This document shows positions 6,087 through 24,604 of a stretch of 58,110 bases of DNA, piece after piece. Every line of letters starts with the position of its first letter. Position 1 is the first letter of the stretch. The stretch spans positions 1 through 58,110 of the forward strand of contig SKTU01000001.1 in the NCBI GenBank assembly GCA_007122455.1, read 5' to 3'. The position numbers and the translations under genes are program-made. Origin of the DNA: Haloarculaceae archaeon. Lineage in GTDB: Archaea; Halobacteriota; Halobacteria; Halobacteriales; Haloarculaceae. The notes under the pieces were generated by a model, which saw only the letters and a list, made by a program, of their open reading frames with translations, had not been told where the DNA came from and made no database searches.

Positions 6087-6118
6087 AATGAACACCAATG
6101 ATCGATATTGCGTTATGA

Positions 6119-8199: not shown

Positions 8200-8201
8200 G
8201 G

Positions 8202-8441: not shown

Positions 8442-8493
8442 CACTATGGTAGTTATCAATAGCAATCAAATAGGTTTCGGCCTTCGTCGGCGT

Positions 8494-9633
8494 TCATCGG
8501 TGTTTCCGGGCTAGGGTGATCGTGGCCGCCGCCACACGATCCCAGGTGTGACGCGTCCCAATTCGCCGGCACGCCATCGGGTCGAACTTGTCTGGTGTCG
8601 TCACGAGCTCGTGCATGGCCTCGGCGACCGCCATCGGCTCTTCGGGGTCGACAGAACACCCAGTCCCTTGTTCGAGGAGCTCCGCCGCACCGCACTGCGA
8701 GGGCGTCGAAATCACGACGGGCGTCCCACAGGCCCACGCCTCGAGGATCACGTTACCGAATGGTTCATACTGGGCAGGATGGACCAGTCCCGTGGCCTCC
8801 CGGTAGAGCTCAACGAGTTCGTCGTGCCCGACCTGACCGACGAAATCGATCGGGAGGGTCGCCTCGAGCTCCGCGGTGTCGAGCGCGTCGATCGATCCAG
8901 CGACGGTCAACGTGACGTCTGACGACGGTGCAAGCCCTCGGAGGGCATCGAGGACTGTGTCGATGCCCTTGCGCTCCTGGTCGCCCCCCACGAACAGCAA
9001 CTTCGTCGTTGTATCCGATTCATCACCTGGCGAAAACCGCTCGGCGTCGACCCCGTTGTAGATCACCCGGATGTCGCTTAATTCGACCCCATCATGCTCG
9101 AGACACGTCCGCTTCGTGAGCTCGCTGTTCGCGATGGTGAGATCGGCGCTCCGGATCGCTTGCCGTTCGAGGCGCCGTTCCGCCCGCCAGATCGTCGCGT
9201 TCGCCACCGAAAAGGCCAGATCGTCAAACGGCCGGGGCAGGCCGATTCGGGGCAGGTTCGCCGGTTTCTCGGTCAGGTTGTAGTGTACTTTCTGGACGGT
9301 TACCCCGTCAAACGGGATTGCGTCGAAGTCGATGTACTCGTGGGAGTGGATGAGGTCAATGGTCTCCAGCTCGGTAGAGGATTCGAGCCAACTGATCGCC
9401 TTCCGGGCGAACCAGAGACGGGGCGCCACGGTCCGCCGATACGAAATGGTCGAAACTTCTACGTTCGACAGCGGCGGTGGCGAGGCGTCCTGGCTGTGTT
9501 GGGCCGACTCGCCTGTGAGGACGTGGACGTCGTGGCCAGCATCGACGAGAGCGTCGGCGAGATGGTAGGCGTGATAGCCCACACCCCCGAGGACGTTGGG
9601 CGGAAATTCCTGTGTGATCAATAGGACATTCAT
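8494..9633 (-). CDS. Glycosyltransferase, GT-B fold (GT4-like)
   Basis: Transfers a sugar from a nucleotide donor to a glycan acceptor on the cytoplasmic side. Seen: 379 residues from ATG 9633. The N-terminal Rossmann domain opens MNVLLITQEFPPNVLGGVGYHAYHL, a typical glycogen-synthase-like acceptor-side loop. The C-terminal domain has NGVDAERFSPG, LLFVGGDQERKGIDTVLDAL and the donor-binding EPFGNVILEAWACGTPVV. The frame extends to 9750, but the ATG at 9633 matches the family start and has an AT-rich box about 27 bases before it. It shares a divergent promoter region with the glycosyltransferase at 9790. The sugar is unknown. Confidence 0.9.
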   Translation of the reverse strand: MNVLLITQEFPPNVLGGVGYHAYHLADALVDAGHDVHVLTGESAQHSQDASPPPLSNVEVSTISYRRTVAPRLWFARKAISWLESSTELETIDLIHSHEYIDFDAIPFDGVTVQKVHYNLTEKPANLPRIGLPRPFDDLAFSVANATIWRAERRLERQAIRSADLTIANSELTKRTCLEHDGVELSDIRVIYNGVDAERFSPGDESDTTTKLLFVGGDQERKGIDTVLDALRGLAPSSDVTLTVAGSIDALDTAELEATLPIDFVGQVGHDELVELYREATGLVHPAQYEPFGNVILEAWACGTPVVISTPSQCGAAELLEQGTGCSVDPEEPMAVAEAMHELVTTPDKFDPMACRRIGTRHTWDRVAAATITLARKHR

Positions 9634-9789
9634 ATTAGGCCATAGACCTACACTACATAGTATGTGGGGAAGCCGAGCGGAGATGCCGCGTGGATACGGT
9701 CGGCGGATCGCATGGAACCGAGCTCCTGCCGCTGGGGGGTCCGGAAACACGGGTATGGACGACCGGAATCATCGTCCCGTGGAGACGTG
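9634..9789. promoter_or_regulatory. Divergent promoter region of two glycosyltransferase genes
   Basis: It contains the inverted repeat ACATA-G-TATGT near 9654-9664, sitting where the TATA box of the leftward gene would lie (about 27 bases before ATG 9633). A box for the rightward gene is less clear. Use as an operator is only a suggestion. Confidence 0.3.
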
Positions 9790-10800
9790 ATGGCCCGACG
9801 CGCGTTGGTCGTTGCCCCAACACCCTACTACATCGAGAAAGGATCGACGTTGCGGGTCCACGCCATGGTCCAGCGCCTCCGCCGACAGGGCTACCTCGTC
9901 GATGTCGTTTGTTACGATCGGGGGACCGATCCGGAATTGGATGGGGTATCGATCAGTCGGGCGGGGATCCGGTCGTTCACGTCGACCGATGCCGGTCCCG
10001 CCCTCACCGACCTCCTTAACGATGTGTTCGTCTCTATCCGCGTCTTTCGACAGGTGTTGACACGCAACTATGACATCCTTCAGGGCGAGGATGTCGAAGG
10101 GATCACTATCGCGTTAGCGGCTTCGATATGCACGGACGCCGAGACGATCTATGACCTTCACAACCCGTTGACCGAAAGCCTGGACCTCCACGGCATCCCG
10201 ATCCCCCACCGTCTCTCGCGGGCGGTTGAGGGGGCCCTGTACCGCCGCGTTGACACGATCCTCGCGAACTGGGGGATGTGGGCCGACGCGATTCGTTCCG
10301 AGTATGATGTTGAGCGGGTCGAGGTGGTTCACGACCAGATACCGGCAGAGATGTCGGAGATCGACCTCCCGACGGATCGGTATCTCACGTACGTCGGCAA
10401 TTTCGAACCATACCAGGGAGTCGATTTACTGGTGGAAGCGTTCGAAGCGGTCGCGGCCGGAACGGATGTGGATCTCGTCCTGGTCGGCGACCCGAGCGTC
10501 GAGATCCGCGACCTCGTGGCTGGATCGCCCGTCGCCGACCGGATCCATCTCCTCGGTCGCCAACCGATTCCGACCGCCAATTTCGTCATCGCGAACGCCG
10601 TTGCCAGCGTTATTCCCCGACGACACGGCACCCAGCCAAGCACCAAGCTGCTCCATTACGCCATGCACGATCCGCCGATTATCGCCACTGACCTCAGGTG
10701 TAACCAGGAGCTCGAGCGACTCGGACACGAGGTCTACTGGGCGGCGCCGACAGCGGGGGGGATTGCAACCTGCATCGAGGAGGTGGCCAACCATGGTTGA
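9790..10800 (+). CDS. Glycosyltransferase, GT-B fold
   Basis: Seen: 336 residues from ATG 9790. The N-terminus is MARRALVVAPTPYYIEKGSTLRV; the C-terminal donor domain has YVGNFEPYQGVDLLVEAFEAV, LVLVGDP, LLGRQP and HGTQPSTKLLHYAMHDPPII. This last stretch replaces the usual E-x7-E motif with a Lys/Tyr version, seen in several surface-glycan GT4-like enzymes. The ORF is open back to 9664 but those residues look non-coding. Its last eight bases overlap the next glycosyltransferase, so the two are probably translated together. Sugar and linkage cannot be told. Confidence 0.85.
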   Translation: MARRALVVAPTPYYIEKGSTLRVHAMVQRLRRQGYLVDVVCYDRGTDPELDGVSISRAGIRSFTSTDAGPALTDLLNDVFVSIRVFRQVLTRNYDILQGEDVEGITIALAASICTDAETIYDLHNPLTESLDLHGIPIPHRLSRAVEGALYRRVDTILANWGMWADAIRSEYDVERVEVVHDQIPAEMSEIDLPTDRYLTYVGNFEPYQGVDLLVEAFEAVAAGTDVDLVLVGDPSVEIRDLVAGSPVADRIHLLGRQPIPTANFVIANAVASVIPRRHGTQPSTKLLHYAMHDPPIIATDLRCNQELERLGHEVYWAAPTAGGIATCIEEVANHG

Positions 10801-11878
10801 TCGCGAGCCGCACCCGCGTGTGCTGTACCTGACGACCCGCGACGTCGCGACCAAGCGTACCGGGGCGGACAACCGTGCGGGCTACCTCTACGAGGGACTC
10901 AGACGGTCGATCTCTGTCGATCTCATCTACTTCGATCGCAGCGAGGAGGACCAGACACATGACAGGGGGACGGCCGTGCCGTATCCTCGGAGCGAACTCC
11001 TCGCAATCCTCTCGATCCGGTTTCTTCTCACCGTGATCAGGGCGGTCAGAAGCGAGGAATACGATGCCGTCGTGGTTTCGGGGATCGGCGCGGTGACGTA
11101 CGGGTTGGTGGCGTCACTGCTCGCTCGAGCGTCCTTCGTGTTCGACGATCATAACGTGGAAGTTCATCTCGCACGGGGCGACTCCATCCCCCGGTACCTG
11201 GTGGTGTACGTCCTCGAACGGAGCGCCTGTGCCCTCGCGGCACTCGTCGTCGTCCCCACTGCGGAAACCCGAACCGCCCTCACCGGGTGGGCCCGGGGAC
11301 AGATCCAAATCGTAACGAATGGCTACGACGCGGAAACGTTCACGCCGGACAGCGACGTGGTCTCGGATGCGACACCTCGGTTGTTTTACTTCGGAAACTA
11401 CCGGTACGAGCCCAACGTAGAGGCGGTAGAGTACATCGCCACGCAGCTTTGCCCGCGGCTCGACAGCGCTGGCGTCGACGCCCAGATCGGGGTTGCGGGC
11501 GCTGGCGTCGAGGAACTCCCTCGTTCACATCGTGAGTCCGAGCGAATCCAGATCCTCGGGTTCGTCGACGATTTGCCCGCGACGATCCGTGCAGCGGAAC
11601 TCGTCATCGTACCGCTTCAGACCGGCAGCGGGTCCCGACTCAAGATCATCGAATCGCTCGCGTGCGGAACGCCTGTCGTTTCCACCCCCATTGGTGCGGA
11701 GGGATGGCCGACTGACTGGAAGAACCTTACCGTCGTAGAGCTCGATGAATTCGCGGAACGCACGATCGAACTCCTCGACGAGGCGACCTTCGAGCGGAGC
11801 GAACTCGATGAGTATGCGAGGTACTCCTGGCAGGCCCAAGCGGAACGGTTCGCGGCAAGCGTCCGATCGACGATCTGA
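10793..11878 (+). CDS. Glycosyltransferase, GT-B fold (GT4-like)
   Basis: Seen: 361 residues from ATG 10793 (MVDREPHPRVLYLTTRDV). Motifs: TGADNRAGYLYEGL in the acceptor domain, FVFDDHNVEVH, IVTNGYDAETFTPD, LFYFGNYRYEPNVEAVEYI, ILGFVDDL and the donor site GSGSRLKIIESLACGTPVVSTPIGAEG. The start codon lies inside the end of the preceding transferase (8-base overlap). Two consecutive transferases in one transcript suggest sequential additions to one lipid-linked glycan; this is inference. Confidence 0.9.
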   Translation: MVDREPHPRVLYLTTRDVATKRTGADNRAGYLYEGLRRSISVDLIYFDRSEEDQTHDRGTAVPYPRSELLAILSIRFLLTVIRAVRSEEYDAVVVSGIGAVTYGLVASLLARASFVFDDHNVEVHLARGDSIPRYLVVYVLERSACALAALVVVPTAETRTALTGWARGQIQIVTNGYDAETFTPDSDVVSDATPRLFYFGNYRYEPNVEAVEYIATQLCPRLDSAGVDAQIGVAGAGVEELPRSHRESERIQILGFVDDLPATIRAAELVIVPLQTGSGSRLKIIESLACGTPVVSTPIGAEGWPTDWKNLTVVELDEFAERTIELLDEATFERSELDEYARYSWQAQAERFAASVRSTI

Positions 11879-12015
11879 GCCCCGCGGGCATCCTCGGTGG
11901 ATGGAACGTCGATCACGAACGCTCACGGTCTCACAGTTCTCGACTGGTTCGATCGCAGTGATTGATCGGAGGAGAGGGACATATGTAGTAGGCACGCGAT
12001 CGCAGAATTCGTTGG

Positions 12016-12963
12016 TCAGACTTTGTAGCCCAGATCACGAAGTCGCTGGTCGACGTCGACCTGCGGTGTCGTGTCGGTCGGCTCCTCGGCCGTGATGGTC
12101 CGCCGTGAAGAGTACGGACACACATGCCAGGGGACCGTAACGAGTTCGTCGGTGTACAGCCCAGGAATATGCCCGTAATACCGGACGGGGATCGGCGTGG
12201 CCCGCTCGCCGAGCATCTCGCCGTGATCGGCGGAAATCACCGTCTTTCCCTCGAACACTTCGAGCAACCGGTCCACTTCCTCGAGGACAGCGTCGAGCGT
12301 CTCCGCGTAGGCCTGCTTGAGAATGTCGTCGTCGACCTCGATCGCGCCGCGGCGAATTCGCTCGTAGAAGCCCATTTCCAGTTGTGATTCGATGGACGGG
12401 AGGTGACGTTCCGCCGTGGGGCCGAACAACGGATGGTGCGGTGGTGCGTAATGGACGAGCAGGCGCTTGTTCGGATATTCGTCGGCGGCGCTAATGGCCG
12501 ACTCCGTCGTCGCGTACATCTGGTCGACGTGCAACCGCTCTTCAGGCTCGTTATGGACGTCGTAGTAGGCGAAAACGCTCGCACCGATCTTCTCTCTGAG
12601 CTTCATGTACCACGGATTCGCCGAGACGTAGACCACGTCGTGGAGTGACCGGTCGCTGAAGTTGGCACGAATGAACTCTGAGGTAGAGGATGCTCGCGAG
12701 ATGCGCGAGGAGGTGGAACCGTCTCGCGTCTCGGCAGCCCGCGCGAAAAAATCCGACCGACAGGCGTCGAGCAGGATTAGGTTGTCCCAGTCGGCTGAAA
12801 AGATATCGATGCCTCGACGATTGTACGACCAGCGACCGAACCTTCGGTGGTAGATCAAGGACGGCCCGTAGAACCCTGCGAGTGAGAGCACGGAGCGCAA
12901 TCCCTCCTCGGCGTAGTACTTTCTGGCTCGGTCGACGATGGAAGTGCCGTTGGGATGGGTCAT
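12016..12963 (-). CDS. Sulfatase-like hydrolase/transferase, second copy in the island
   Basis: Seen: 315 residues. It has NLILLDACRSDFF (metal Asp66), a candidate Thr nucleophile in ASSTSEFIRANF (Thr94), HYAPPHHPLFG, and VISADHGEMLGE near the end (metal Asp/His). Shorter than the 440-residue paralogue and only distantly alike. GAGGAG lies one base before an in-frame ATG at 12969 but seven bases before ATG 12963, so the latter is chosen. It follows the GT-C gene by about 20 bases, suggesting that it modifies the sugar this transferase handles or transfers a phospho-group. No signal peptide is seen. Confidence 0.78.
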   Translation of the reverse strand: MTHPNGTSIVDRARKYYAEEGLRSVLSLAGFYGPSLIYHRRFGRWSYNRRGIDIFSADWDNLILLDACRSDFFARAAETRDGSTSSRISRASSTSEFIRANFSDRSLHDVVYVSANPWYMKLREKIGASVFAYYDVHNEPEERLHVDQMYATTESAISAADEYPNKRLLVHYAPPHHPLFGPTAERHLPSIESQLEMGFYERIRRGAIEVDDDILKQAYAETLDAVLEEVDRLLEVFEGKTVISADHGEMLGERATPIPVRYYGHIPGLYTDELVTVPWHVCPYSSRRTITAEEPTDTTPQVDVDQRLRDLGYKV

Positions 12964-12985
12964 GGTCATACTCCTCACATGCCGG

Positions 12986-14776
12986 TCATATAGCCGTCGG
13001 AGTCGCGTTGGGTACGGTCGCGAGATCGGCACGATCGCAGCTCGCCTCGTGCTCCCAAGAGTAGACGCGCATTCCTGTAGCGTCGACATCGTGATTCGTG
13101 AGAGTATCGAGCACGTCCCGAGCCTCTGGACCGATGCGCTGCCAGACGATGCGATCGACAACGATCCACCCCCGCTCGTGGCAGCCGATGGCGCTTTCGA
13201 GCCGGGAGGCATTCTCGATCGGGACGGCCCCCGAATACACCTCGTAACGACCGTCGATCGTCCAGGTGCGATCGGCGCTGGTCAGGTTGTGAACCATCCA
13301 ATAGTCGACGTGCCCGTGGTAGTATACGGCTGGTGCCGTCCAGCCTGCGACGATGACGTCATCCGGTTCGGAAAGTTCATCCACATACGCGTACGCGCCT
13401 TTGAAATCCGGTTGTGGTGCGTTCGGACCGAGCTCATACTCCGCCTGCGGTACGACTGTGAGGTTCGCTGAAACGAGCAGCAAGACGACGAGGATCGGCA
13501 CGACCGTCGCCACGAAATTCGTTGCCGTCGACCAGGGGAGTCGGGTCATCGAAGCTCCTGTAGCGCTCTCTCGGACGGGCTCGATCACGTCAAGGAGTCG
13601 ATCGGTCAGAAAGGACCCCACGAAGCCGACATAGATCGCGGCGATGGGAACGGCGAAGTAGAGATACCGCCCGGCGAAGAGGTAGGTGTTGTATGCGAGT
13701 ACCCAGAGGGGCGGGAGGAGGGCGAGCGCGAGCAACAGGCCGAGCTTGGGGCGCCGGAAACTCAGACCCATCCCCACGAGCGCAAGCAAGGAGAGGGCGG
13801 GGAATTCCGCGCGTACCCAGGACCGGTACCGGTTGACGTGGACGATGTCGGTCGCGAGGGCGGTTTGCGCGGCGGTGAGCGGCCCGGTGGCGAGGAGTTC
13901 AAGGACGACCGCGCCCACAACTGTTCCGCCGACGATCAGCGCCGTCAGTGGGGATCGGATTCCGTGGGTGGTCCACGCCTGAACGAGGAGGTACGTTCCC
14001 GCGACGGGAATGAGAATGAGGCCGATGGGATGCGTGAGGGCCCCCACGGCCGTCCCAGCGACGACGAGGCTGACCGAGGGTGGATCGATAGGGCCTGTCC
14101 GATCCATCCGCGCGAGCCCGAGGAGCGCCAGCGCGTAACACAGCTGGAGTTGCTGGTACATCCTTGCCTGGCGACCCCAGGCGATTTCCCACGTGAGAAA
14201 GGTGACGAGGATCGCGGCGAGGAGGCCGACTCGTCGGTCACCGACTTCGCGACCGAGCCAGTAGGTGACCAAAATCGTGGCAACTCCTTGCACCACCGAC
14301 GGCAGACGGGCGGCCCACTCGGAGACGCCGAAGAGGACCATCGAGGCGGCGACGATGAGGGTGTGAGGGAGGCCGCGGCGGTATTCGACACCGGAGGGGA
14401 ATCCCGGTGTGCCGCGTTCGAGAAGCCCGAGTGCCGCCGTCGTCGTGATGGCCTCATCAAACCAGAAGCTGGGGGAGCCGAGGGCATAGAGCCGGAGAAG
14501 CGCACCGACGAGTAACAGCCCACCGAGGCACAACCCGACCTGTGTACGTGATATGAGGGTTCGTTCAGTTCCGTCTGACGCGGGCGCGCGATACTGCCAC
14601 AGAAACAATCCCAGGAAGGTTGCAGCGAGCAGGACTGCGAACGCGTCGAGGTCGAGAGGCCAGTTTACGCCGAGGAATACCTGTCCGATGAGTAGGAAGA
14701 TAAAAAAGACCAACAAAGAGGCTGAGACGTCACTTGCGAGCGGGATGTACCCCGGAGTATCACGTTGAGATGACAT
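12986..14776 (-). CDS. Multi-pass GT-C glycosyltransferase (GT39/ArnT-like)
   Basis: An integral membrane transferase expected to move a sugar from a dolichyl-phosphate donor onto a glycan or protein outside the membrane. Seen: 596 residues with about a dozen hydrophobic segments. The first extracellular loop holds the GT-C acid motif FWFDEA (Asp107-Glu108), and WGRQARMYQQLQLCYALAL follows, the family's conserved Arg-x-Tyr region. A soluble tail of roughly 110 residues follows the last membrane span. The ATG at 14776 has an AT-rich box centred about 26 bases upstream, fitting a leaderless mRNA. The sulfatase-like gene follows in the same transcript. Confidence 0.88.
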   Translation of the reverse strand: MSSQRDTPGYIPLASDVSASLLVFFIFLLIGQVFLGVNWPLDLDAFAVLLAATFLGLFLWQYRAPASDGTERTLISRTQVGLCLGGLLLVGALLRLYALGSPSFWFDEAITTTAALGLLERGTPGFPSGVEYRRGLPHTLIVAASMVLFGVSEWAARLPSVVQGVATILVTYWLGREVGDRRVGLLAAILVTFLTWEIAWGRQARMYQQLQLCYALALLGLARMDRTGPIDPPSVSLVVAGTAVGALTHPIGLILIPVAGTYLLVQAWTTHGIRSPLTALIVGGTVVGAVVLELLATGPLTAAQTALATDIVHVNRYRSWVRAEFPALSLLALVGMGLSFRRPKLGLLLALALLPPLWVLAYNTYLFAGRYLYFAVPIAAIYVGFVGSFLTDRLLDVIEPVRESATGASMTRLPWSTATNFVATVVPILVVLLLVSANLTVVPQAEYELGPNAPQPDFKGAYAYVDELSEPDDVIVAGWTAPAVYYHGHVDYWMVHNLTSADRTWTIDGRYEVYSGAVPIENASRLESAIGCHERGWIVVDRIVWQRIGPEARDVLDTLTNHDVDATGMRVYSWEHEASCDRADLATVPNATPTAI

Positions 14777-15014
14777 CTATGTGCTGGTTAATCCTTGGAT
14801 AATTTTGCAGTACGAGCTGAGGAAAGTGTCGGAGTGAATCGCCATTAATCATGGTTGTTTGACGAAATCTTTATTTCATATGAACTTGATATCAATTAAT
14901 ATGCTATCAAGTATAAATTTATTTCAGCATAACCTGACACTAAGTGTGGTGGTAGCAGTTACCTCCATCGAACACGACGTCGAAACCGCCACCATGTTCG
15001 AGGAGGAGTGAACG
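14777..15014. promoter_or_regulatory. Divergent AT-rich promoter region with an inverted repeat
   Basis: Separates the leftward GT-C gene from the rightward secreted-protein gene. It is strikingly AT-rich around 14860-14940. The inverted repeat ACTTGATA (14884-14891) and TATCAAGT (14905-14912) has a 13-base spacer, and TATAAATTTA follows at 14913-14922 as a likely TATA box for the rightward operon. A GAGGAG ribosome-binding site precedes ATG 15015. The repeat could be an operator. Confidence 0.45.
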
Positions 15015-16043
15015 ATGCGCCGTAGCATCCCAACGATCGGCATCACCCTGATCATCGTTTTGCTCCTCGTGGTCCTCACACAGCCCACCAGCGCTGTGCT
15101 GACCACGGTCAGCGGCCCGGATGAAATCGACCGCGGTGAGGAAGCCGCCTTCAGTACGACCGTTGAGATCCGGGAGGACGAACGGATCCCGGTCGAAGGG
15201 TTCAACGTAACCCTTACCCCGGCTGAGAGTACCGGGACCGTGGTCGTCACCTTCACCACGGACGGCGATGTCGACGAGGTTCACGTCACCGGTGACGCGG
15301 ACGAATACATCGACATCGACGCCCTCACAGCCTCGATCGTGCTCGCTGACGTCCAGCGCACGGCCGACTTCGGCTACGGGTACCTGTCGGGCACGGACGA
15401 GCGAACGACCGATGACCATAGTTTCGGATACGGATACGGGTATGGTTACGGCTATGACGCTAACACCGATGGGACGTTCACCTTCGACGTGCAGTTCGAT
15501 TCTGCTGCCCTCGCTCCCGGTGACTACACCCTCCAGGTAAACGTAAACTCCGGTGCTAACGTGTTTGCCTCGAACGAGTTTACATTCAGCGTGCTTCCGG
15601 ACGTCGTGGATGGTACTCTCGAGGTCACCCCCGAGACGCTCAATCTCGCCTCCCAGGGCCAGTGGGTGACTGGCTACATCACCCTAGATGATGCCGATGT
15701 GGCCGACATCGAACTCGGCTCCGTCGAACTGAACGGCGTTGCTGCCATCGACGACCCGCGCTACGGGTTCGTCAGGAATCCCGTCGTCGAACGGGATGGT
15801 GAGGAGGTCTTCATGGCTAGGTTCCCGCGTGACGAGGTCAGCGACACCGTGGAGCCCGGCGACGCTGTGACGATGACTGTCAACGGCACCGTCGACGGGG
15901 TCACGTTCACGGCGACGGACACCATCCGGGTGATCGACCGTGGCGGCGCCTCGGGCGATAACCGTGGTGGCGGGTTCAGTGACGATCGGGACCGTGGCCA
16001 GGGGAATCCCCACCATGATGATCCACACCGAGGGCCCCGATGA
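15015..16043 (+). CDS. Secreted protein with Gly-Tyr repeat and Ig-like beta regions
   Basis: Seen: 342 residues. A Sec signal peptide (basic start, hydrophobic core 8-21, TSA at 25-27) leads into an acidic beta-rich exported protein. Around residues 115-147 there are aromatic-glycine runs: DFGYGYL, then FGYGYGYGYGYD. The later part contains beta-sandwich-like stretches (GTLEVTPETLNL, GDAVTMTVNGTV) and ends in a Gly/Arg/Asp/His-rich tail. No membrane anchor or lipobox is seen, so it is probably released or held to the surface by its glycans or tail. It heads an operon with a GT2 and a GT-C enzyme, so it may be their target. Molecular function unknown. Confidence 0.8.
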   Translation: MRRSIPTIGITLIIVLLLVVLTQPTSAVLTTVSGPDEIDRGEEAAFSTTVEIREDERIPVEGFNVTLTPAESTGTVVVTFTTDGDVDEVHVTGDADEYIDIDALTASIVLADVQRTADFGYGYLSGTDERTTDDHSFGYGYGYGYGYDANTDGTFTFDVQFDSAALAPGDYTLQVNVNSGANVFASNEFTFSVLPDVVDGTLEVTPETLNLASQGQWVTGYITLDDADVADIELGSVELNGVAAIDDPRYGFVRNPVVERDGEEVFMARFPRDEVSDTVEPGDAVTMTVNGTVDGVTFTATDTIRVIDRGGASGDNRGGGFSDDRDRGQGNPHHDDPHRGPR

Positions 16044-16098
16044 TGCGCGTTGAGCCTGCCGTGATCGGCACCCATCACCGACAGGTGAGTGGGTACTG

Positions 16099-17112
16099 AT
16101 GGAGCTCTCGGTCGTCCTCCCGGTGTACAACGAGGCAGGAAACCTCGAGCCGCTGTACAGCGAACTCGTCGATGTTCTAGAGACCTACTTCGATCGGTGG
16201 GAGGTGATCTTCGTCGACGACGGATCGACGGACGGTAGTCGGGAGCAGTTGACGCGCTTGGAAAGCGACGACGAGCGCGTCTGTGTCATCCAGTTCACGA
16301 CCAATTTCGGCCAGAGCGCCGCCCTCGACGCCGGCATGAAGCGGGCGCGAGGTGACGTGGTCGTGACGATGGACGCCGACGGACAAAACGATCCCGCGGA
16401 CATCCCACGGCTCGTCGAAACTCTCGAGACGGAGGGGTATGATTGCGTGGTTGGGTGGCGGAAGGACCGCGTGGATCCCCTCGGCAAGCGCGTCGCCTCC
16501 CGGTTCGCGGGGCTGATTCGGCGGCTCTTCCTCCGGACCGATCTCCACGATTACGGCTGTACGCTTAAGGCGTTCACCAACGAGACGGCCAACGCTATCG
16601 ACATCCGGGGAGAGATGCACCGCTACGTCCCTCCGATCCTCACCTGGCGAGGGTACGTCGTGGGCGAGATTGAGGTCAACCACCGGACACGCTGGCATGG
16701 CCAGACCAAGTACGGGTGGGATCGGCTGCCAAAGGGATTCATGGACATGCTCAACGTCTGGTTCTGGCAGAAGTACTCTGGGCGACCCATCCACGTCTTC
16801 GGTGGTCTCGGCATCCTCGCCGGGACCCTCGGCGGGGCGGGGGGTCTCTACTCGGTGTACCTCAAGGCCTTCGAGAACGTGAGCCTCTCGGACACCGCCT
16901 TGCCGCTCTTCTCGGTGTTCATGGTCCTGTTGGGGATCCAGTTCTTCATTTCCGGTATTCTCGCGGATATCAGCATCCGGAATTACTTCCAGCTCCAGGA
17001 CTCGCCCGATTACCGGATCCGGACAGAGCGGGCGCCCAAACCAGTGGACGGGGGCAGCCCGGAGCGGATGCGATCGACCGAGGAGCGTCCAGCAGTCGCT
17101 TCCGATCAATGA
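16099..17112 (+). CDS. GT2 glycosyltransferase with C-terminal membrane helices (dolichyl-phosphate sugar synthase-like)
   Basis: Makes a lipid-phosphate sugar or flips activated sugar into the membrane pathway, by family. Seen: 337 residues. GT2 domain: LSVVLPVYNEAGNLEPLY, FVDDGSTDGS (Asp40-Asp41), NFGQSAALDAGM, VTMDADGQNDP (metal-binding DAD), GWRKDR and NHRTRWHGQTKYG. Two hydrophobic segments (about 234-256 and 272-297) follow, as in DPM1/GtrB-type enzymes. The stop overlaps the next gene's start (ATGA). A partner GT-C gene directly behind it is the natural user of its product. Confidence 0.9.
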   Translation: MELSVVLPVYNEAGNLEPLYSELVDVLETYFDRWEVIFVDDGSTDGSREQLTRLESDDERVCVIQFTTNFGQSAALDAGMKRARGDVVVTMDADGQNDPADIPRLVETLETEGYDCVVGWRKDRVDPLGKRVASRFAGLIRRLFLRTDLHDYGCTLKAFTNETANAIDIRGEMHRYVPPILTWRGYVVGEIEVNHRTRWHGQTKYGWDRLPKGFMDMLNVWFWQKYSGRPIHVFGGLGILAGTLGGAGGLYSVYLKAFENVSLSDTALPLFSVFMVLLGIQFFISGILADISIRNYFQLQDSPDYRIRTERAPKPVDGGSPERMRSTEERPAVASDQ

Positions 17113-19244
17113 GCCCGCGCCAGCTCCCGCTCGTGGACCGAGCCCGCAGCCTCTCGATCGTTTCGACCTTCGTCCGATCGACTGGACTCCGTGGCCTCGC
17201 GAAAGGGTACCTGGTGAGCTTGTTGAAATGGATGGACGTGTATCGCGTCTCGCTCGCTGCCATCTTGCTCGTGGGATTCTTCCTGCGCGTCTGGCAGCTC
17301 GGTTCTGCCCCCTTCTGGGTAGACGAGGCGTTCACTGTGTGGGCGGCCGAGAACTTCGTCCGCGGGCAGGGATTCTCCGACGTGGTTGGTCCGGAATCAC
17401 CCTACCGACGTGCGTGGTTGACCACCACGCTACCGATTTCGGCGCTCTTTGCGCTCTTCGGGTCAAGTGAGTTCGTCGCCCGGATGCCGTCAGCCGTCCT
17501 AGGGACTGCAACAATCGTCGTCGTGTATCTCATTGGATCGCAATACCACCGCCACGTCGGGATCGTCGCCGCGATCTTGGTCGCGCTCGACCCGTTCATG
17601 ATCGTTTGGGCTCGCGAAGCCCGCATGTACGCTCATCTGCAACTCTTCTATGTTCTGGCGATCTACCTTCTTTCGCGCTGGCACGTCCAGCACGACCTGC
17701 AACTGCGGTCGAGGTATGCCGTCGGCTTGGTTGTCATTGTTGGGCTGGGAAGTCTAACCCACCGGGCGTTCCTCGCCTTCGGTGCCGTGTTCCTTGCCTT
17801 TATGTGTCTCCTGGTGATTAGCCACGATCCGCGCAAGAAGTTCCGGTCGTCCAGCATCGACGAAGTGGCAGTACGGGCTCTCGCCTACGGATTCTGCGGC
17901 GTTCTGGTGGCCGTAGGATTTGTTGCTGTGAACGGCGTCCCAGGGGTCCTTTCAGCGCCAGCGCCGGGGCAGTGGCCGGAGCGCGGCTACGATTATTACT
18001 GGGTGTTCTTCGTCGACAACTATTCCATCCTTTGGGTGTTGGCGGTCGCCGGAATGGTGTACTTACTGCTCGGCGATGATCGAGATCATCTGTTGGTGTA
18101 CGCCGTCATCATCCCCTTTATCGTCGCCTCGCTCACTGCAACGAAGGCGCCACGTTACGTCTACCACCTGGTCCCGTTGCTCTTCCTCATTGCCATCATC
18201 CCGCTCGCCCACCTCGTCGACAACCTGTTCGCTCAGTCCTCCCAATCGATCAACTGGGGGCGTCGGTTCGATGCACGTCGAACGGGGATCACCATCGTCC
18301 TTATCTTCGTATTAGCCGTGACACCGCCAGCGGCGGCTCTCGAGGCCACACAGGTCGGAGACGACAACCCCTTCCACCCCGGTCATTCGGATTTCGAGGA
18401 GGCCAGCGCGTTCATTGCGGCGCACGACGATGGCACAGGAATCGTCATGTCAACTCGTCCAGAGGTGTCGCTGTGGTACCTAAACGAGACCGACTATTTC
18501 TTCCGACAACACGGAGTCAAATACGCGGAACAGCGTGGGGAGAACCTCGTACACACCCGCACGGGCACGGTTGTGGTGACCGATCCATCCGTTGTTCGAG
18601 AGGCGATGGATGAGCAGCGGCCGATCTGGCTGCTCGCTGGGCAACGCTTCAATCAGGGCTTCACATCGAACGAAATGCGTTCGTACGTACGCCAGAATTT
18701 CGTCGAGATTTCCAACGAATCCTGGCATAATATGGCGATCTACTACTGGAGTCCGTACATCGACACCCGCACATTCAGTGTCGTGGAAGACATGGGTGAG
18801 ACCACTGACAACGCGTTCGTCTACGAGGACGGTGATAACCAGGTCCTTGCGCTCGGGCGAACAGTCGATACCCCTGCCCATTTCGGCGAACAAGGAGAGC
18901 AAGCCACCGGTTCGGCAACGATGGAAGTCGCCATCCGGGCTGACGAGCCTATCCTGATCGAGTCTCGGACGTTTGGAAACGACGATGGTCAACGTTTCGT
19001 GAACGTGAGCGTGTCCACTGACGGGGAGGAGTGGCAGCTCATTCACCGGAACGCCGACGACCAATGGGCGGTCAAGCAGTCGGAGCTTCCTGCGGACTTC
19101 ACGGACGACGACCGTCTCTATATCCGCGTACACGGCGGCACTGAGGGCGGCAGCAGCCACGGTGGGCTCGTTGATTACGTCAGAGTTGCCACGACTGAGG
19201 AGTGGGAGCGGGAATACCTTGAGGTAGAAGATCCCCACAGGTAA
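17109..19244 (+). CDS. Multi-pass GT-C glycosyltransferase with large extracytoplasmic C-terminal domain
   Basis: Seen: 711 residues from ATG 17109, in a 4-base overlap with the GT2 stop. Membrane segments begin near residue 47; the GT-C motif FWVDEA (Asp72-Glu73) lies in the first outer loop and WAREARMYAHLQLFYVLAIY follows. After the last span (about residue 415) comes a soluble region of nearly 300 residues. Its end (about 590-700) looks like a jelly-roll carbohydrate-binding domain (SATMEVAIRADEPILIESRT, VNVSVSTDGEEWQLI, RLYIRVHGG). Likely transfers the sugar delivered by the preceding GT2 enzyme onto an exported acceptor. It is longer than the 596-residue GT-C paralogue because of this domain. 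Confidence 0.88.
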   Translation: MSPRQLPLVDRARSLSIVSTFVRSTGLRGLAKGYLVSLLKWMDVYRVSLAAILLVGFFLRVWQLGSAPFWVDEAFTVWAAENFVRGQGFSDVVGPESPYRRAWLTTTLPISALFALFGSSEFVARMPSAVLGTATIVVVYLIGSQYHRHVGIVAAILVALDPFMIVWAREARMYAHLQLFYVLAIYLLSRWHVQHDLQLRSRYAVGLVVIVGLGSLTHRAFLAFGAVFLAFMCLLVISHDPRKKFRSSSIDEVAVRALAYGFCGVLVAVGFVAVNGVPGVLSAPAPGQWPERGYDYYWVFFVDNYSILWVLAVAGMVYLLLGDDRDHLLVYAVIIPFIVASLTATKAPRYVYHLVPLLFLIAIIPLAHLVDNLFAQSSQSINWGRRFDARRTGITIVLIFVLAVTPPAAALEATQVGDDNPFHPGHSDFEEASAFIAAHDDGTGIVMSTRPEVSLWYLNETDYFFRQHGVKYAEQRGENLVHTRTGTVVVTDPSVVREAMDEQRPIWLLAGQRFNQGFTSNEMRSYVRQNFVEISNESWHNMAIYYWSPYIDTRTFSVVEDMGETTDNAFVYEDGDNQVLALGRTVDTPAHFGEQGEQATGSATMEVAIRADEPILIESRTFGNDDGQRFVNVSVSTDGEEWQLIHRNADDQWAVKQSELPADFTDDDRLYIRVHGGTEGGSSHGGLVDYVRVATTEEWEREYLEVEDPHR

Positions 19245-19294
19245 TCGTGAGATATCGACACCTATTCCGCACCCACGGTAAATCGCATCCGATA

Positions 19295-19935
19295 CGCGTA
19301 TCAACCGTTTTCAGGAGGTCGATCGGACGCTCTCGGAGCGAGTGAGTTCGACGATCAGGTTGCGCTCCTTGAAGAGCACCTCGACATGCAGGCGCGGTAC
19401 GGCCCCAACATCGTCCGTGAACCAACGGAAGCATCCAAGGGGAACGCAGACGATACGGGATCGCCTTGCTTTCAGCGGATGACTACCCAATCGAGGACTC
19501 CCAATACTATCTGTTCGAAGATCGAGTACGGAGAGTAATCATCAGAGGCCTGTTGGTAATCCACATCGACGTCTGTGGGCAGATACTCGCGTGCTTAAAC
19601 GCATCTCGCCCTCACCCTCGATCAGCGTCGGCGACAGGCGACGGCCTTGCTCGAAATCGCTGATCGTCATCCCCCCGCAAGTACTAGTCGGAGATCTCAA
19701 CACCATGCCCGACGAGGGGGCGATCGACCACGTCCGGGAACAGTATCACATGACGTCGCCGCAATCGGAGGATGGCGACACCGAAACGTTCCCGTCGACC
19801 GATCTGGAACGTCGCATCGACTACGCGTTCGTGACTCCAGATGTTCGCATCTAGGAGGCTTTCGTCGATCCCACGGATACGCCGGATCACTGCCCCATCA
19901 AAACGATCATCGAGTTGTCCGGAACGGGACCGTAA
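19295..19935 (+). pseudogene. Decayed endonuclease/exonuclease/phosphatase (EEP) family gene
   Basis: Family motifs appear in order but in shifting frames: FQEVDRT (Mg-binding Glu motif, about 19309), QVALLEEHLDMQARYG (about 19356), RYGIALLSADDYPIEDSQYY (about 19452), THLALTLDQRRRQATALLEI (about 19599), VLVGDLNTMPDEGA (from about 19683), RRIDYAFVTPD and DTPDHCPI. The last frame change falls at the C6 run 19671-19676. A TAG at 19852-19854 interrupts the tail before the Asp-His motif. With several shifts and a stop it cannot make a working enzyme. The N-terminus is missing. Confidence 0.8.
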
Positions 19936-19953
19936 CCCAAGTGCATGGCCGTA

Positions 19954-21465
19954 TTAGCCGACGTACTGAATCAGCCGGATGCACCGCGGTCGAATCGAGT
20001 CGGGGAGGCGCTCTGCAAGCCCGATCAATTCGGCGGGGTCCACGGCTCTGAGGCGCAAGCCGAGGACGGTGTAGACGACGAACCCGACCGGGGGGACGAC
20101 AACCAACGAGACGAGGCTCGGCCCTGTCGCCATGGCTAGCCCCCCAATCACCACAGCGCTCACCGACACCGTGCTGCCGACCCGAAATAACCGAAGGTCA
20201 GCAACAGGATTATAGCCGATCGAACGGGCAGCGACGACGTGGAAGCCGAGCATGGATGCGTAGCCGATACTCGTCGCGACCGCAGCGCCAGCCATCCCGT
20301 AAGGCGGGATAAGCACCAGGTTCAACCCGAGATTGAGAAGGGCCGCGGCCGCGGTGGCGAGGATCAGCGGTTGCAGCATCCCCGCTCCCTGCCCGATGGC
20401 GAAGATTGGTCGGGCGATCGCGAACCCGAGCGCTCCCGGGAGGAGTAGCCAGAGCGGGAGAACAGCGGGGGTGAACTCGTCCCCAAAGTAGAGCCCGACG
20501 AACGGCTCGGCCAGGGCAGCGATCCCGGTGGCGACGAGCACGGTGAAAAACAGGGTATACCTGGCGACTCGCGCAGCGATCTCGGAGATTCTGGCTGTTT
20601 CTTCCTTCGCCCAGAGTTCCGAGGCGGAGTGAAGGAGAACCATCTGAAGGGCGAACGGGACGAACCAGAGGAACTCCGCGACGATGAGGGCGGCTTTGTA
20701 CAGGCCGGTCGCCTCGCTTCCGACAAACCACTGTAGGAGGATGATGTCGACGTGATAGAGCGATGCGGTGAGCAGGATAAGCATGACGCTGTGGGCGTTG
20801 AATGTGAGGAGTTCGCGTCGCGGAACATGCACTCGTTTTGGACGGAACGCTGCACGTATGTCGTAATGAAACGAGAGGAGGTACGTGCCGACCACGAGGA
20901 CGATTGCCCCGGCGATGAGGTGACCGGCAACAACGCCGCTGACGTCATAGCCGACGTATGCGAGGCTAATTCCGAAGATACCGAACAGCAGCTTTTGCAG
21001 GGCCCAGAGCGGCTCGGACAGGTGTTCGAGGCCTTTTCCCATCAGGGAGCTCCGGACGATATTCTCTCCCTGGCGAACGACGATGACACCCGCGAGCAGG
21101 TACAGATAGGGGACAAAGACGGGACCGAGCAACGATTCAGTCACTCCCGCGAGATTCGCGGCGACGAAACCCAGCGCCGCGATGCCAGCGAGGATCGTCC
21201 CTGTCTGTACGTAGAATCCGTACACGGCGTCGGCCCATCCGGCCCGATCTCGATCCTCTGCGACGAACTTCCGGAGCCCATCGGTGATCCCCGCGTTGAC
21301 GAGGATCATCGAGACGCCGAGGATCGAGAGGATGAAGGCGTAGTCACCGTAGTTGGCGGTCCCGAGGACGCGGACGAGGATTGGGGTGATCGCGATCCCA
21401 AGGAGGAGCCTGACGAGATTGGAGGAAAAGATCGAGAGAAATCCGCGGATGGGATCGGTGCGCAT
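19954..21465 (-). CDS. Polysaccharide/oligosaccharide flippase (Wzx-like, MOP superfamily)
   Basis: Moves lipid-linked glycans across the cytoplasmic membrane. Seen: 503 residues, about 12-14 hydrophobic helices in the paired arrangement of Wzx proteins. N-terminal family features: FSSNLVRLLLGIAITPILVRVLGTANYGDYAF and GITDGLRKFVAE. The start is ATG 21465 (MRTDPIRGF); the frame continues to a TTG at 21477. It lies at the right end of the island beside the epimerase gene, so it is the natural exporter of the island's glycan. Substrate unknown. Confidence 0.88.
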   Translation of the reverse strand: MRTDPIRGFLSIFSSNLVRLLLGIAITPILVRVLGTANYGDYAFILSILGVSMILVNAGITDGLRKFVAEDRDRAGWADAVYGFYVQTGTILAGIAALGFVAANLAGVTESLLGPVFVPYLYLLAGVIVVRQGENIVRSSLMGKGLEHLSEPLWALQKLLFGIFGISLAYVGYDVSGVVAGHLIAGAIVLVVGTYLLSFHYDIRAAFRPKRVHVPRRELLTFNAHSVMLILLTASLYHVDIILLQWFVGSEATGLYKAALIVAEFLWFVPFALQMVLLHSASELWAKEETARISEIAARVARYTLFFTVLVATGIAALAEPFVGLYFGDEFTPAVLPLWLLLPGALGFAIARPIFAIGQGAGMLQPLILATAAAALLNLGLNLVLIPPYGMAGAAVATSIGYASMLGFHVVAARSIGYNPVADLRLFRVGSTVSVSAVVIGGLAMATGPSLVSLVVVPPVGFVVYTVLGLRLRAVDPAELIGLAERLPDSIRPRCIRLIQYVG

Positions 21466-21683
21466 GGGAAGGTACAATTACGCGACGGGGCTCGACAGAG
21501 CCATTGCTTCTCGCCCGATCACGGATAGTCACCGTGGGACCGACAGCTGCTTATTGGTTGTGATCGATCACCGTTGCTGTTGGTTACGCAACATTCAATC
21601 TCGACCGCTTAGCACTGGGCAAACCACGAACGATGACCGTCGATTCTGGAAATGTTTTTCCCGTCGGCCTGCGGTCAATAACC

Positions 21684-22601
21684 ATGGATGGACGACGCGT
21701 ACTGGTCACCGGTGGCGCCGGGTTCATTGGCTCGAACCTCGCCAACCACCTCGCCGAACGAAACGACGTCATCGTCGTCGATAACTGCTACCTCGGAACG
21801 CCCGATAACCTCGATCCGGCCGTCGATTTTCGCGAGGAATCAGTCCTCTCGGACGACCTCCCGACCGACGTTGACTGTGTGTTCCACCTGGCGGCACTCT
21901 CGTCCTATGCGATGCACGAAAATCACCCGACGCGCGGGGCTCGGGTCAACGTCGAGGGATTCGTCAACGTCGTCGAGCACGCCCTGACCGACGGATGTGA
22001 CACCGTCGTCTATGCGTCGACCTCGTCCATCTACGGCAGCCGCACGGAACCGTCCCCCGAGGACCTCCCGGTCGCGGTGAATACGGGGTATGAGGCCTCG
22101 AAGCTCGCCCGTGAACGGTATGGTGAGTACTTTTCTAACCATCACGGCATGGCGATGGCGGGATTGCGCTTTTTCTCCGTTTACCAGGGGTATGGTGGGG
22201 CCGAGGAACACAAGGGGACCTACGCCAACGTGATCGCGCAATTCGCCGACGACATCGCCAATGGGTGTCAGCCCGAGCTGTACGGTGACGGCACGCAGAC
22301 CCGTGATTTTACCCACGTGGACGACATCGTTCGCGGCATCGAGCTGGCCGCCGACAATCGGCTGGATGGCATCTACAACCTTGGCACCGGCGAGGCGTAC
22401 TCGTTCAATACCGTCGTCGACGCCATCAACGAGGAGTTGGGTACCGATGTCGAGCCCGCGTACGTTGACAACCCGATTCCTGCCGAGGTCTACGTACACG
22501 ACACGTGTGCGGATAGCTCCAAGATACAGGCCGAGACCGCCTGGGAGCCCGAGGTCACCTTCGAGGAGGGAATCCGACGCGTGTGTCGCCAATATCAGTA
22601 G
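21684..22601 (+). CDS. NAD-dependent sugar epimerase/dehydratase (GalE-like extended SDR)
   Basis: Interconverts nucleotide sugars (4-epimerase or related) to feed glycan synthesis. Seen: 305 residues from ATG 21684. It has VLVTGGAGFIGSNL (NAD-binding GxxGxxG), FHLAALSS, YASTSSIYG and the catalytic YEASK pair (Tyr-x3-Lys), then RFFSVYQGYGG, RDFTHVDDIV and YNLGTGEAYSF. The frame opens upstream at 21633, but the ATG at 21684 matches the family N-terminus. The exact substrate (UDP-glucose, UDP-GlcNAc or GDP/dTDP sugars) cannot be read from sequence alone. Confidence 0.9.
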   Translation: MDGRRVLVTGGAGFIGSNLANHLAERNDVIVVDNCYLGTPDNLDPAVDFREESVLSDDLPTDVDCVFHLAALSSYAMHENHPTRGARVNVEGFVNVVEHALTDGCDTVVYASTSSIYGSRTEPSPEDLPVAVNTGYEASKLARERYGEYFSNHHGMAMAGLRFFSVYQGYGGAEEHKGTYANVIAQFADDIANGCQPELYGDGTQTRDFTHVDDIVRGIELAADNRLDGIYNLGTGEAYSFNTVVDAINEELGTDVEPAYVDNPIPAEVYVHDTCADSSKIQAETAWEPEVTFEEGIRRVCRQYQ

Positions 22602-22858
22602 GGCGTGTCTTAACCTGTTTCCCTCGAAGCGTTCCTCAACGGGCCACGTTCACCGGAACACGATTGTCGATTCGGCGTGACGTGGTCGAATCCCCCGAAC
22701 CAATACTTCTGCCGCACACGAACTCCCGAGCGACGAATCCGTCCACGGAAGATCCGACTCCGAGCCACCGGGCACAGCGAGCGTTCCAGATTCTCACTTC
22801 TGAGTCCTCGTAGCGGTTTCCTTCGAGCGTCGCGTCTTCGACCGACTCGAATCAGCGC
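22602..22858. other. Right-edge intergenic stretch of the glycan island with tRNA-end-like sequence
   Basis: No convincing gene. At 22686-22701 the sequence TCGAATCCCCCGAACC resembles the last part of tRNA-Val (6302-6318, TCAAATCCGCCCGAACC) with one substitution and one gap plus a neighbour change. It could be an attachment-site remnant or chance. A minus-strand frame stretch (FESVEDATLEGNRYEDSEVR, near 22848) has no start codon. Confidence 0.3.
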
Positions 22859-24604
22859 TCAGATCTCGTGAATCCGTTCGCCGCGATCGAGCCGTTCGGC
22901 GATTCGGAACGTCTGCTCGCCGGCGCGTCGGGTCGGCGTGTGCGCCGAGAGATATCGCACGGTCGCGACGAGGTGAACCCGTGCTCGTTCCTCGTCGACC
23001 GCCGAGTCGTACTGGTTGAACGCCGCTTCGACGTTCTGTCGGGGGTGGAAACCGGCGTCCTCCCGGAGAAGCGCTTCCCCGAGACTACGCTTCAGTTGTG
23101 CGACGTCGCCGTCAGCTGCCAGATACTCAGCCGTCAGTCGACCGGCCCGGTCGACCTCCTCGTCGGACTCGACTTCGAAGCAGGTCAGTAGCTCCTCGAG
23201 GATCGAATCCGGATCACCGTCGCCGTCCGGTTCGGGGAGGGCGATCGGCGGGACGTTGAGGAATCGATCGAGGTAGACGTTCATCGCCGCGTCGAAGACG
23301 CCGCGGTAGAGTTCCATCGCGTCGGTTCGCCGGCTGAGGCTGAAAACCGCGTTCGCGTAGCTGTACGTGTGATGGACGGTGTTCCAGTCGCCGAACTCGT
23401 TGCTCGTGCCGAACTGTGCGATCCGACGACCGGCCGCGTACGCGACGGTCCGGGCGAGTTCCTCGACGGTCCCTCCGTTCGAGATCGCGGTCGTCAGGGC
23501 GTCGACGATCTCGTGGGGATCGTCCCCAAGCAGGACGTCGAGGTGGTCGTCCGGCTCCTCCCAGGGACCGTCCGCATCCTCGATTAGTTCGGGGAGTTCG
23601 TCCGCGGCGTCGAAGCACAGTCGCGCCACGTCGATCGGCTGTCGCCACGAGGAGCGTTCCTCTGCCCGATCCGCCGAGGCGAGCCCTGACACGAGCGTCG
23701 GAAGCACGCTGTCGGCGTGTTCCCATCCGACGTGATCGAGCGTCTCGAACGCCTTGTTGACGAAGTCGACGGCGTGACCGTTGTCGAGGTAGAGATGATC
23801 CGTCGCGGCGGCGACGAGCATCTCCGCGACGGCCGACTCGTCGAGATCGGCCGCGATTGCGGCCCGGAGGACGCGCTCGGCACCGTCGGAGTCGCGCACT
23901 TCGACGTTGTTTCGGAACCACGCCTCGAGTCGGTCCGCGGCGACCGTGTCGGCGGCGAGCGGCTCCTGGACGAAGAACGGCGGTTCGCCGGCGCAGTCGT
24001 CGGCGACTTCGGTGAGCCCGATGTAGAGTGCCCGGGGGCGATCCTCCGAGCGGAGCTCTCCGAGGAGGTTCGCCATCACGCCGAGGGTCGTCAGCCCGCT
24101 TCCCCAGCCGCCCTCGCGATACTGCGTGCCGAAGTCGATCCCGATTCGGACCGGAACCGTGTACGGAACATCCGCCCGCTTCAGTCCGATAACCGACTTG
24201 GCGACGACGAGATCGAGATTTTCCTGTAACCCGTGGGTGAGCCGCTCCCGCCAGTGTTCCTCCGGGGGTTTGTCCCGTCCGGGGTTCGGATCGACGTAGA
24301 CGTCGTCGTCCCGAAGTTCGATGGGGTAGGTTCGAACGTCGTCGGCGAAGGGGTCGAACGTGTCCCCACACGAGATCTCGAAGCGCGCGTGGTGCCACGG
24401 ACAGGTGAGGATCCCGTCGTCGACCGATCCGTCCGTCAGTGGAAAGCCCATGTGCGGACAGCGGTTGTCGGTGGCGTAGAACTCGCCCTCGTGGTGGAAC
24501 ACTCCGATGGTGCGGCCGTCGACGCGGACGGTCTTCGGGGCGGCCGCCCGTATCTCTTCGGCCGATCCGATCCGGACGTACTGGTCGCTTTGCTCGGTGG
24601 ACAT
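22859..24604 (-). CDS. Rieske-type [2Fe-2S] protein fused to a long helical domain of unknown function
   Basis: Seen: 581 residues. Residues 1-105 are a Rieske ferredoxin domain with CPHMGFPL (Cys49, His51) and CPWHHARF (Cys68, His71), all four cluster ligands present. The remaining ~470 residues are predicted mostly helical, cytoplasmic and rich in conserved-looking His/Asp patches (DNGHAVDFVNKAFETLDHVGW, WNTVHHTYSYANAV). No membrane helix or mononuclear-iron oxygenase 2-His-1-carboxylate motif of the usual kind was identified. It may be an oxidoreductase whose electron entry is fused to its catalytic part; that is inference. It is a single-gene unit before the kinase gene. Confidence 0.8.
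   Translation of the reverse strand: MSTEQSDQYVRIGSAEEIRAAAPKTVRVDGRTIGVFHHEGEFYATDNRCPHMGFPLTDGSVDDGILTCPWHHARFEISCGDTFDPFADDVRTYPIELRDDDVYVDPNPGRDKPPEEHWRERLTHGLQENLDLVVAKSVIGLKRADVPYTVPVRIGIDFGTQYREGGWGSGLTTLGVMANLLGELRSEDRPRALYIGLTEVADDCAGEPPFFVQEPLAADTVAADRLEAWFRNNVEVRDSDGAERVLRAAIAADLDESAVAEMLVAAATDHLYLDNGHAVDFVNKAFETLDHVGWEHADSVLPTLVSGLASADRAEERSSWRQPIDVARLCFDAADELPELIEDADGPWEEPDDHLDVLLGDDPHEIVDALTTAISNGGTVEELARTVAYAAGRRIAQFGTSNEFGDWNTVHHTYSYANAVFSLSRRTDAMELYRGVFDAAMNVYLDRFLNVPPIALPEPDGDGDPDSILEELLTCFEVESDEEVDRAGRLTAEYLAADGDVAQLKRSLGEALLREDAGFHPRQNVEAAFNQYDSAVDEERARVHLVATVRYLSAHTPTRRAGEQTFRIAERLDRGERIHEI

Follow-up and report, generated by a model that had tools for sequence, protein, structure and literature searches.

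A candidate system for polymer glycosylation outside the cell and its recurrent secreted partner in a haloarchaeal glycan island

The 58,110 nucleotides analyzed here (contig SKTU01000001.1 of assembly GCA_007122455.1, referred to as the window) stem from a haloarchaeon of the family Haloarculaceae and carry on the plus strand, at positions 15015-19244, a group of three genes encoding a secreted protein of 342 amino acids with a Gly-Tyr loop (SEC), a glycosyltransferase (GT2) and a membrane transferase (GT-C). We favor, with moderate confidence, the interpretation that GT2, a flippase and GT-C together decorate a surface polysaccharide outside the cell and that SEC is a coat or matrix protein. 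SEC belongs to an uncharacterised family that recurs beside sugar-coat genes. The genome (G000) comprises 2.93 Mb on 149 contigs and is 87% complete, and the relatives used for comparison are haloarchaea.

According to this interpretation, GT2 would move a sugar from a nucleotide sugar to dolichol or polyprenyl phosphate at the inner face of the membrane, and a Wzx/MATE-type flippase, probably the product of the gene at 19954-21465 (FLIP), would turn the lipid-phosphate sugar outward. GT-C would then transfer the sugar to a polymer outside the cell, which may be held by a jelly-roll tail of the enzyme. SEC would be secreted with the glycan as a matrix or coat protein, whose two predicted Ig-like domains might bind or organise the polysaccharide and whose Gly-Tyr loop might act as a self-association or contact element.

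The three-gene group and its enzymes

An open reading frame listing and a codon-usage gene caller gave the same three genes on the plus strand, which confirms the three-gene group of the original prediction. SEC (15015-16043) is followed after a gap of 55 bases by GT2 (16099-17112, 337 amino acids). The frame of GT-C is listed from 16716 because it is open upstream; the likely start is the ATG at 17109, also chosen by the gene caller, which overlaps the TGA of GT2 by four bases (ATGA) and gives a protein of 711 amino acids ending at 19244. The overlap suggests coupled translation of GT2 and GT-C, and for the whole group we infer co-transcription from the sequence. Upstream of SEC, an AT-rich stretch at 14860-14940 of the same strand (26% GC), which contains TATAAATTTAT at 14912-14922, is a candidate archaeal promoter region.

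GT2 matches PF00535 with 126.6 bits (cut-off 23.3) and its best relatives of solved structure are ArnC (2.6e-37), GtrB (5.3e-28) and dolichol-phosphate mannose (DPM) synthase (6.3e-18). By sequence relationship it is a polyprenyl-phosphate glycosyltransferase of the lipid-phosphate-sugar synthase type, which supports the predicted loading of a lipid-phosphate sugar. Although ArnC is the closest solved structure, the scores of GT2 lie below the curated cut-offs of the ArnC equivalog NF007986 (147.1 of 529 bits) and of the AglJ model TIGR04182 (59.7 of 325 bits), and its sugar can therefore not be named. In the C-terminal part hydropathy shows one membrane segment (262-280), and the alignments with ArnC and GtrB reach residue 307-309.

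GT-C matches PF13231 (PMT_2) with 50.6 bits (cut-off 26.1), shows ten membrane segments by hydropathy and stays below the cut-off of the Agl23 model TIGR03663 (41.2 of 126.25 bits). D72-E73, located after the first membrane segment, and the motif RxARMY (169-174) are invariant in six of six aligned homologues; the acidic pair at the D72-E73 position is presumably catalytic in PMT-type enzymes. ArnT belongs to the same broad PMT-like class as GT-C, and to our knowledge lipid A, the acceptor of the ArnC-ArnT system, is absent in archaea. The assembly has PMT_2 matches at three sites, of which two fall into the window: GT-C and GTC2 (12986-14776, minus strand), the latter placed divergently to the three-gene group. 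The comparison with the archaeo_STT3 model TIGR04154 gave 9.2 of 450 bits (E 0.32) for GT-C and a weak 28.5 of 450 bits for GTC2, and the AglB of this genome is encoded by a separate gene on contig C125 (G000:C125; 845.3 bits). By these model scores GT-C is not AglB, and the earlier assumption of a membrane transferase distinct from AglB holds.

Past the last membrane segment GT-C carries an alpha/beta domain common to tail-less homologues and then a tail of about 150 residues (562-711; 18792-19241). The tail was found only in the window and in the GT-C of Halosimplex pelagicum R2 (23% identity over 155 columns), and this homologous copy argues for a real domain. A two-row model of the tail matched two of 146 genomes of the family, both being rows of the model, and among 391 genomes of the class the window and three marginal matches (E 0.0018-0.0072), which were dropped. 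The structure model of the outer part was computed from four aligned sequences, two of them extending over the tail. Its mean predicted local distance difference test score (pLDDT) is 60; blocks of the tail range from 37 to 81, and model residues 211-250 reach 72-81. In this model the tail folds into a nine-strand beta-sandwich or jelly-roll. Foldseek matched the tail to carbohydrate-binding modules (CBM4, CBM6, CBM35, CBM61), a hyaluronan-binding module, the sugar-binding Fbs1 and other jelly-rolls including toxin components. VIA-align of this low-confidence model gave CBM16 with Z 9.1 (root-mean-square deviation, rmsd, 3.0-3.1 over 113-114 residues) and Cry-toxin jelly-rolls with Z 9.4-9.7. 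The modelled fold class of the tail is likely a jelly-roll, so that the lectin-like beta-sandwich of the original prediction stands as a low-confidence, CBM-like model to which no sequence match to a CBM could be added.

The association of these enzymes recurs in other genomes. A PMT_2-type GT-C is found on the same stretch in six of seven haloarchaeal loci with a close GT2 (E below 1e-130), namely the window, L112, L114, L115, L075 and L223, and none was found in L113. This count covers the window, L075, L223 and the matches among ten loci (L112-L119, L121, L124) that were compared with the window genes, taken from 80 of the 142 GT2 relatives of a profile scan. The PMT_2-type GT-C lies directly downstream of GT2 in the window and nearby in L114, L115, L075 and L223; in L112, a contig of 3.6 kb outside the reach of the SEC search, a relative of GTC2 (3e-124) is located directly upstream of the GT2 orthologue. 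FLIP (19954-21465, minus strand) matches PF13440 with 64.6 bits (cut-off 23), and an orthologue of it (3e-139 to 2e-149) lies directly upstream and on the same strand of the four closest tail-less GT-C orthologues (L076-L079; 41-43% identity, E below 1e-119). The underlying GT-C search matched 71 of 146 genomes of the family; these four and the tailed copy in G419 were followed, and the remaining matches were mostly weak GT-C paralogues.

The SEC family and its gene neighbourhoods

SEC contains a single hydrophobic segment (residues 4-22, hydropathy), which represents the signal segment. In a single-sequence structure model with a mean pLDDT of 56, it is followed by an N-terminal all-beta domain with a (GY)5 loop, a second all-beta domain and a disordered, low-confidence C-terminal tail rich in Gly, Asp, Arg and His; the loop, encoded at 15426-15455, is predicted to be disordered as well (block pLDDT 24-35). 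The top structural matches of the model are to RbmA of Vibrio, with Z 8.2 (rmsd 18.8 over 184 residues) and Z 8.1 (rmsd 3.1 over 101 residues, one domain). ICAM-1, a cohesin-FnIII pair and antibody chains score almost the same (Z 7.9-7.7), and the match to RbmA is therefore only a hint. A sequence search of the PDB gave no match to SEC at E up to 1, RbmA included.

The C-terminal beta domain, which has no Pfam match over cut-off, also recurs in other haloarchaeal secreted proteins of 556 to 1408 amino acids according to the gene caller (L065-L068). No glycan genes were detected beside them with 14 window genes as queries.

A hidden Markov model of the N-terminal domain, built from 13 aligned sequences, matched 30 of 391 genomes of the class at E 1e-3. 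Fourteen are clear members (E 2e-79 to 8e-27), 13 of which are rows of the model itself and one (G143) is new; the other 16 (E 1.8e-5 to 9.7e-4) were left out of the family. Twelve of the 14 members show alternating Gly-Tyr (two or more residues, runs of three or longer), and with L223 lacking GYG and L075 having a single GYG, the Gly-Tyr run is not universal in the family. As a signature at the DNA level it was rejected: the (GY)4 pattern occurred in 16 of 381 genomes, in seven of them through SEC genes, and a reversed control pattern in 17 genomes, which makes the pattern alone meaningless. At ten loci of the nine non-SEC genomes no protein with a signal peptide was seen by eye.

In all 14 loci the gene adjoining SEC is of glycan type: it encodes a Wzx-type flippase in nine of them, a GT2 in four and a DUF2079-PA14 membrane protein in one. 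In the nine loci with a flippase as next gene (L060-L064, L069-L071, L074) this is followed by relatives of a GT2-GT4 fusion, identified by a Pfam scan in L061, and by a sulfatase-fold protein. The latter is a homologue of the product of window gene 6877-8199, which has homologues (E 7e-41 to 1e-82) in nine of the 13 other SEC loci, and close relatives (E below 1e-144) of the sugar epimerase EPIM of the window are present in five of the 13. A Polysacc_synt match was obtained for one of four scanned members of the SEC-adjacent flippases (L064), and a profile comparison connects their family to that of FLIP with a probability of 97.3%. GT2 is the neighbour of SEC in the window, L073, L075 and L223. 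In L075 and L223 it is an orthologue of the window GT2 (4e-149 and 1e-142) in divergent orientation, so that SEC adjoins orthologous GT2 genes in three genomes, two families and two arrangements.

In the remaining locus, L072, SEC is directly preceded by the gene of a membrane protein (15287-17113 and 17269-18046 for the pair) that combines DUF2079 with a PA14 domain (57.2 bits against a cut-off of 24); EPIM and GT2 relatives lie in front of it and SEC ends at the contig end. This is a second way in which a sugar-binding-like domain occurs on a membrane protein encoded beside SEC, and DUF2079 belongs to the GT-C clan. Several of the flippase-type clusters also encode a phosphodiesterase-fold protein and a large membrane protein, and four (L060, L061, L069, L070) are headed by an HVO_A0261/FilR1-type regulator, identified by Pfam scan in L061, together with an epimerase. 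Among the membrane proteins of these loci CBM_4_9 exceeds its cut-off in L061 (26.0 of 25.9) and stays below it in L060, L062 and L063; the Pfam scan gave no CBM in L064 and L074, the gene of L070 is cut by the end of the locus and L069 was left out. The repeated occurrence near SEC of membrane proteins whose outer part may bind carbohydrate would form a parallel to the tailed GT-C, which is suggestive only.

The constant position of SEC beside glycan-type genes makes it likelier a sugar-coat protein than a substrate. The original prediction had seen in SEC the target of a dedicated protein-glycosylation device, with SEC glycosylated by GT-C and held by its tail. Its place at the head of the gene group, its signal segment, 11.4% Thr and two N-X-S/T sequons would fit this assumption, as would the names of the Pfam families PMT and PMT_2, which refer to protein mannosyltransferases. 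Sequons are, however, not conserved in the family: the sequon FAPNG-T/S common to seven of the 14 relatives is missing from the SEC of the window, and four of the 14 N-terminal domains have none. SEC as an N-glycoprotein of conserved design was rejected for this reason. Furthermore, the nine flippase-type loci contain SEC and other glycan genes without this GT2 and GT-C, and no SEC was found at the four tail-less GT-C loci. We therefore regard the targeting of SEC by GT-C as distinctly unlikely.

The lower-GC glycan island

The GC content is 61.0% over 6100-22700 compared with 65.6% before and 65.0% after this stretch, and the three-gene group is part of this lower-GC glycan island. Besides FLIP and GTC2 it includes the sulfatase/phosphodiesterase-fold gene (6877-8199, minus strand), three GT4 glycosyltransferase genes (8494-9633, 9790-10800, 10793-11878) and EPIM (21633-22601, plus strand), a putative NAD-dependent sugar epimerase/dehydratase according to its Pfam match. 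For an empty site we compared same-genus genomes in which trpD (5085-6086 in the window) and the Rieske gene (22859-24604) are both on long contigs. In all four (G288, G435, G436, G352) the two genes are not neighbours, and thus no empty site can be demonstrated. In the trpD flanks of eight relatives the sole glycan-type homologue of window genes is a GT2 in L229 (1e-88), which was excluded from the orthologue counts. A plasmid search gave no match to SEC and two weak partial matches covering 15% and 21% of GT-C.

The low GC content, the absence of SEC from the 11 other genomes of the genus searched with the N-domain model and the different partners that the SEC and GT2 trees give the window with moderate support (SEC pairs with that of L072, support 89/86) would be expected if a mosaic, horizontally shuffled island had brought these genes together fortuitously and SEC were functionally unlinked to GT2 and GT-C. 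With the orthologous GT2 adjoining SEC in three genomes of two families and glycan-type neighbours in every SEC locus, such an accidental assembly appears very improbable to us.

Some further observations concern the island and its surroundings. The gene at 12016-12969, downstream of GTC2, looks alkaline-phosphatase-fold-like by eye and has no significant Pfam match; a relative (2.7e-37) lies near GT2 in a locus of the Diapherotrites (L116, 5343-6836). This locus also contains a GT2 with 54% identity, epimerases and GT4-like genes. A secreted protein encoded there resembles SEC weakly (E 4.4e-6) and was left out of the SEC counts. Glycan genes may have passed between haloarchaea and a second archaeal lineage. 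The translation of 1-1950 resembles by eye a ribonucleotide reductase broken by an intein-like sequence (CVTGDTLISTESG). The gene at 22859-24604 encodes a protein of 581 amino acids that has a Rieske domain at its N-terminus and about 480 residues matching nothing significant in Pfam, and it is present in nine of 20 genomes of the genus including its own, the others at 52-56% identity.

The acceptor and comparison with known systems

In bacteria, sugar is attached to a completed polymer on the outer side of the membrane by a set consisting of polyprenyl-phosphoribose synthase, MATE flippase and CBM-bearing GT-C (PMC11127046; for this and all other papers cited, our statements refer to the excerpts available). 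The pentofuranose system of Citrobacter youngae (GT136 ORF12), CsbB-GtcA-YfhO and Gtr combine a polyprenyl-phosphate-sugar synthase, a MATE- or GtrA-type flippase and a GT-C, and some of these GT-Cs have an outer CBM for which binding of the acceptor polymer is assumed or demonstrated (PMC11127046, PMC8035078). By analogy, the tail of the GT-C in the window may hold its acceptor, and a polymer is a more likely acceptor than a protein. The window differs from these bacterial systems in being archaeal, in the PMT_2-type GT-C with its own rare tail and in the secreted Ig-like partner that heads the group. The pair of synthase and GT-C and a MATE/Wzx flippase, as expected for multi-component transmembrane glycosylation, are present.

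Several points weigh against the decoration of a polysaccharide by this set of genes. No flippase of the GtrA family (PF04138) was found in the 87%-complete assembly, whereas seven of 14 control genomes matched, and FLIP is located on the opposite strand from GT-C, convergent and 710 bases away. The exact succession of SEC, GT2 and GT-C is not conserved in other haloarchaea, which is one half of what had been named as refuting the original prediction, and only partial versions were found: nine of the 14 SEC loci have a flippase but lack this GT2 and GT-C, the tail-less GT-C loci (L076-L079) showed no SEC within about 20 kb, and the GT-Cs of L075 and L223 are only distantly GTC2-like (7e-12 and 9e-19), with that of L223 below the PMT_2 cut-off (24.2 of 26.1 bits). 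In addition, both structure models are of low confidence, and as Cry-toxin jelly-rolls tie with CBMs, the fold match indicates no ligand of the tail. No CBM of Pfam matches the tail by sequence; the only match, Adhesin_Dr, is under cut-off (E 0.0073).

Finally, the acceptor could be an AglB-linked glycan. In Haloferax volcanii, AglD, AglR and AglS do a comparable job on the N-glycan, and the same three roles of a dolichol phosphate (DolP)-sugar synthase, a flippase-type protein and an outer transferase are thus found in a haloarchaeon (PMC3871713). This system, compared here by description, acts on the AglB-linked N-glycan, and the excerpt describes neither a secreted partner nor a CBM tail. 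In analogy to AglS, GT2, FLIP and GT-C might extend the AglB-linked N-glycan of S-layer or other proteins by a terminal sugar, with SEC as a mere passenger, and AglB is present in this genome. However, AglB is located on a different contig, albeit of a fragmented assembly, and the GT4s, the epimerase and the sulfatase/phosphodiesterase-fold gene around the three genes, the last two of which recur with SEC elsewhere, suggest a separate glycan. Therefore, we consider such a branch of N-glycosylation rather unlikely and prefer a surface polysaccharide as acceptor.

A role of GT2 in polysaccharide synthesis would be in line with findings in Haloarcula hispanica, where AepG, likewise a GtrB/DPM-like GT2, makes DolP-GlcA for the exopolysaccharide, a pathway called still unknown in the excerpt (PMC9943897). 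For AepG, compared by description, no GT-C partner is mentioned there, unlike for the GT2 of the window, and the paper does not use the term GT-C. The counterpart of SEC may be RbmA of Vibrio, a secreted matrix protein with tandem FnIII domains that binds exopolysaccharide (PMC5605196). SEC would share the secreted tandem-domain design with RbmA, for which its low-confidence model gives only a hint; sequence similarity is absent and the Gly-Tyr loop is a feature of SEC. As GYGYGYG peptides form amyloid-like fibrils in vitro (PMC10510724), self-association of the loop is conceivable by analogy; none of the open-licence items found on GYGYGYG is archaeal by its title.

A more far-reaching idea is that SEC founds a family of glycan-matrix scaffolds in haloarchaea, in which the Gly-Tyr loop self-assembles, the Ig-like domains grip the polysaccharide and the tail of GT-C docks on the scaffold-bound polymer. 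We regard this as speculative and unlikely in this full form. If true, SEC genes beside the export or transfer genes of their own cluster would mean joint production of glycan and scaffold, and the family would correspond in archaea to the biofilm scaffolds of the RbmA type.

Among the open-licence papers listed, judged by titles and the beginnings of abstracts, we found no description of SEC or of this arrangement. The enzymes are of known kinds, and it is the combination of a private GT-C tail with a recurrent secreted partner that represents a variant. As the assembly of haloarchaeal exopolysaccharides is poorly known, the locus is a candidate with which extracytoplasmic glycosylation of polymers can be tested in archaea, and a GT-C with a CBM-like acceptor domain would be part of it. 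Furthermore, the SEC family may serve as a genetic marker for surface-polysaccharide clusters in haloarchaea and perhaps for matrix proteins.

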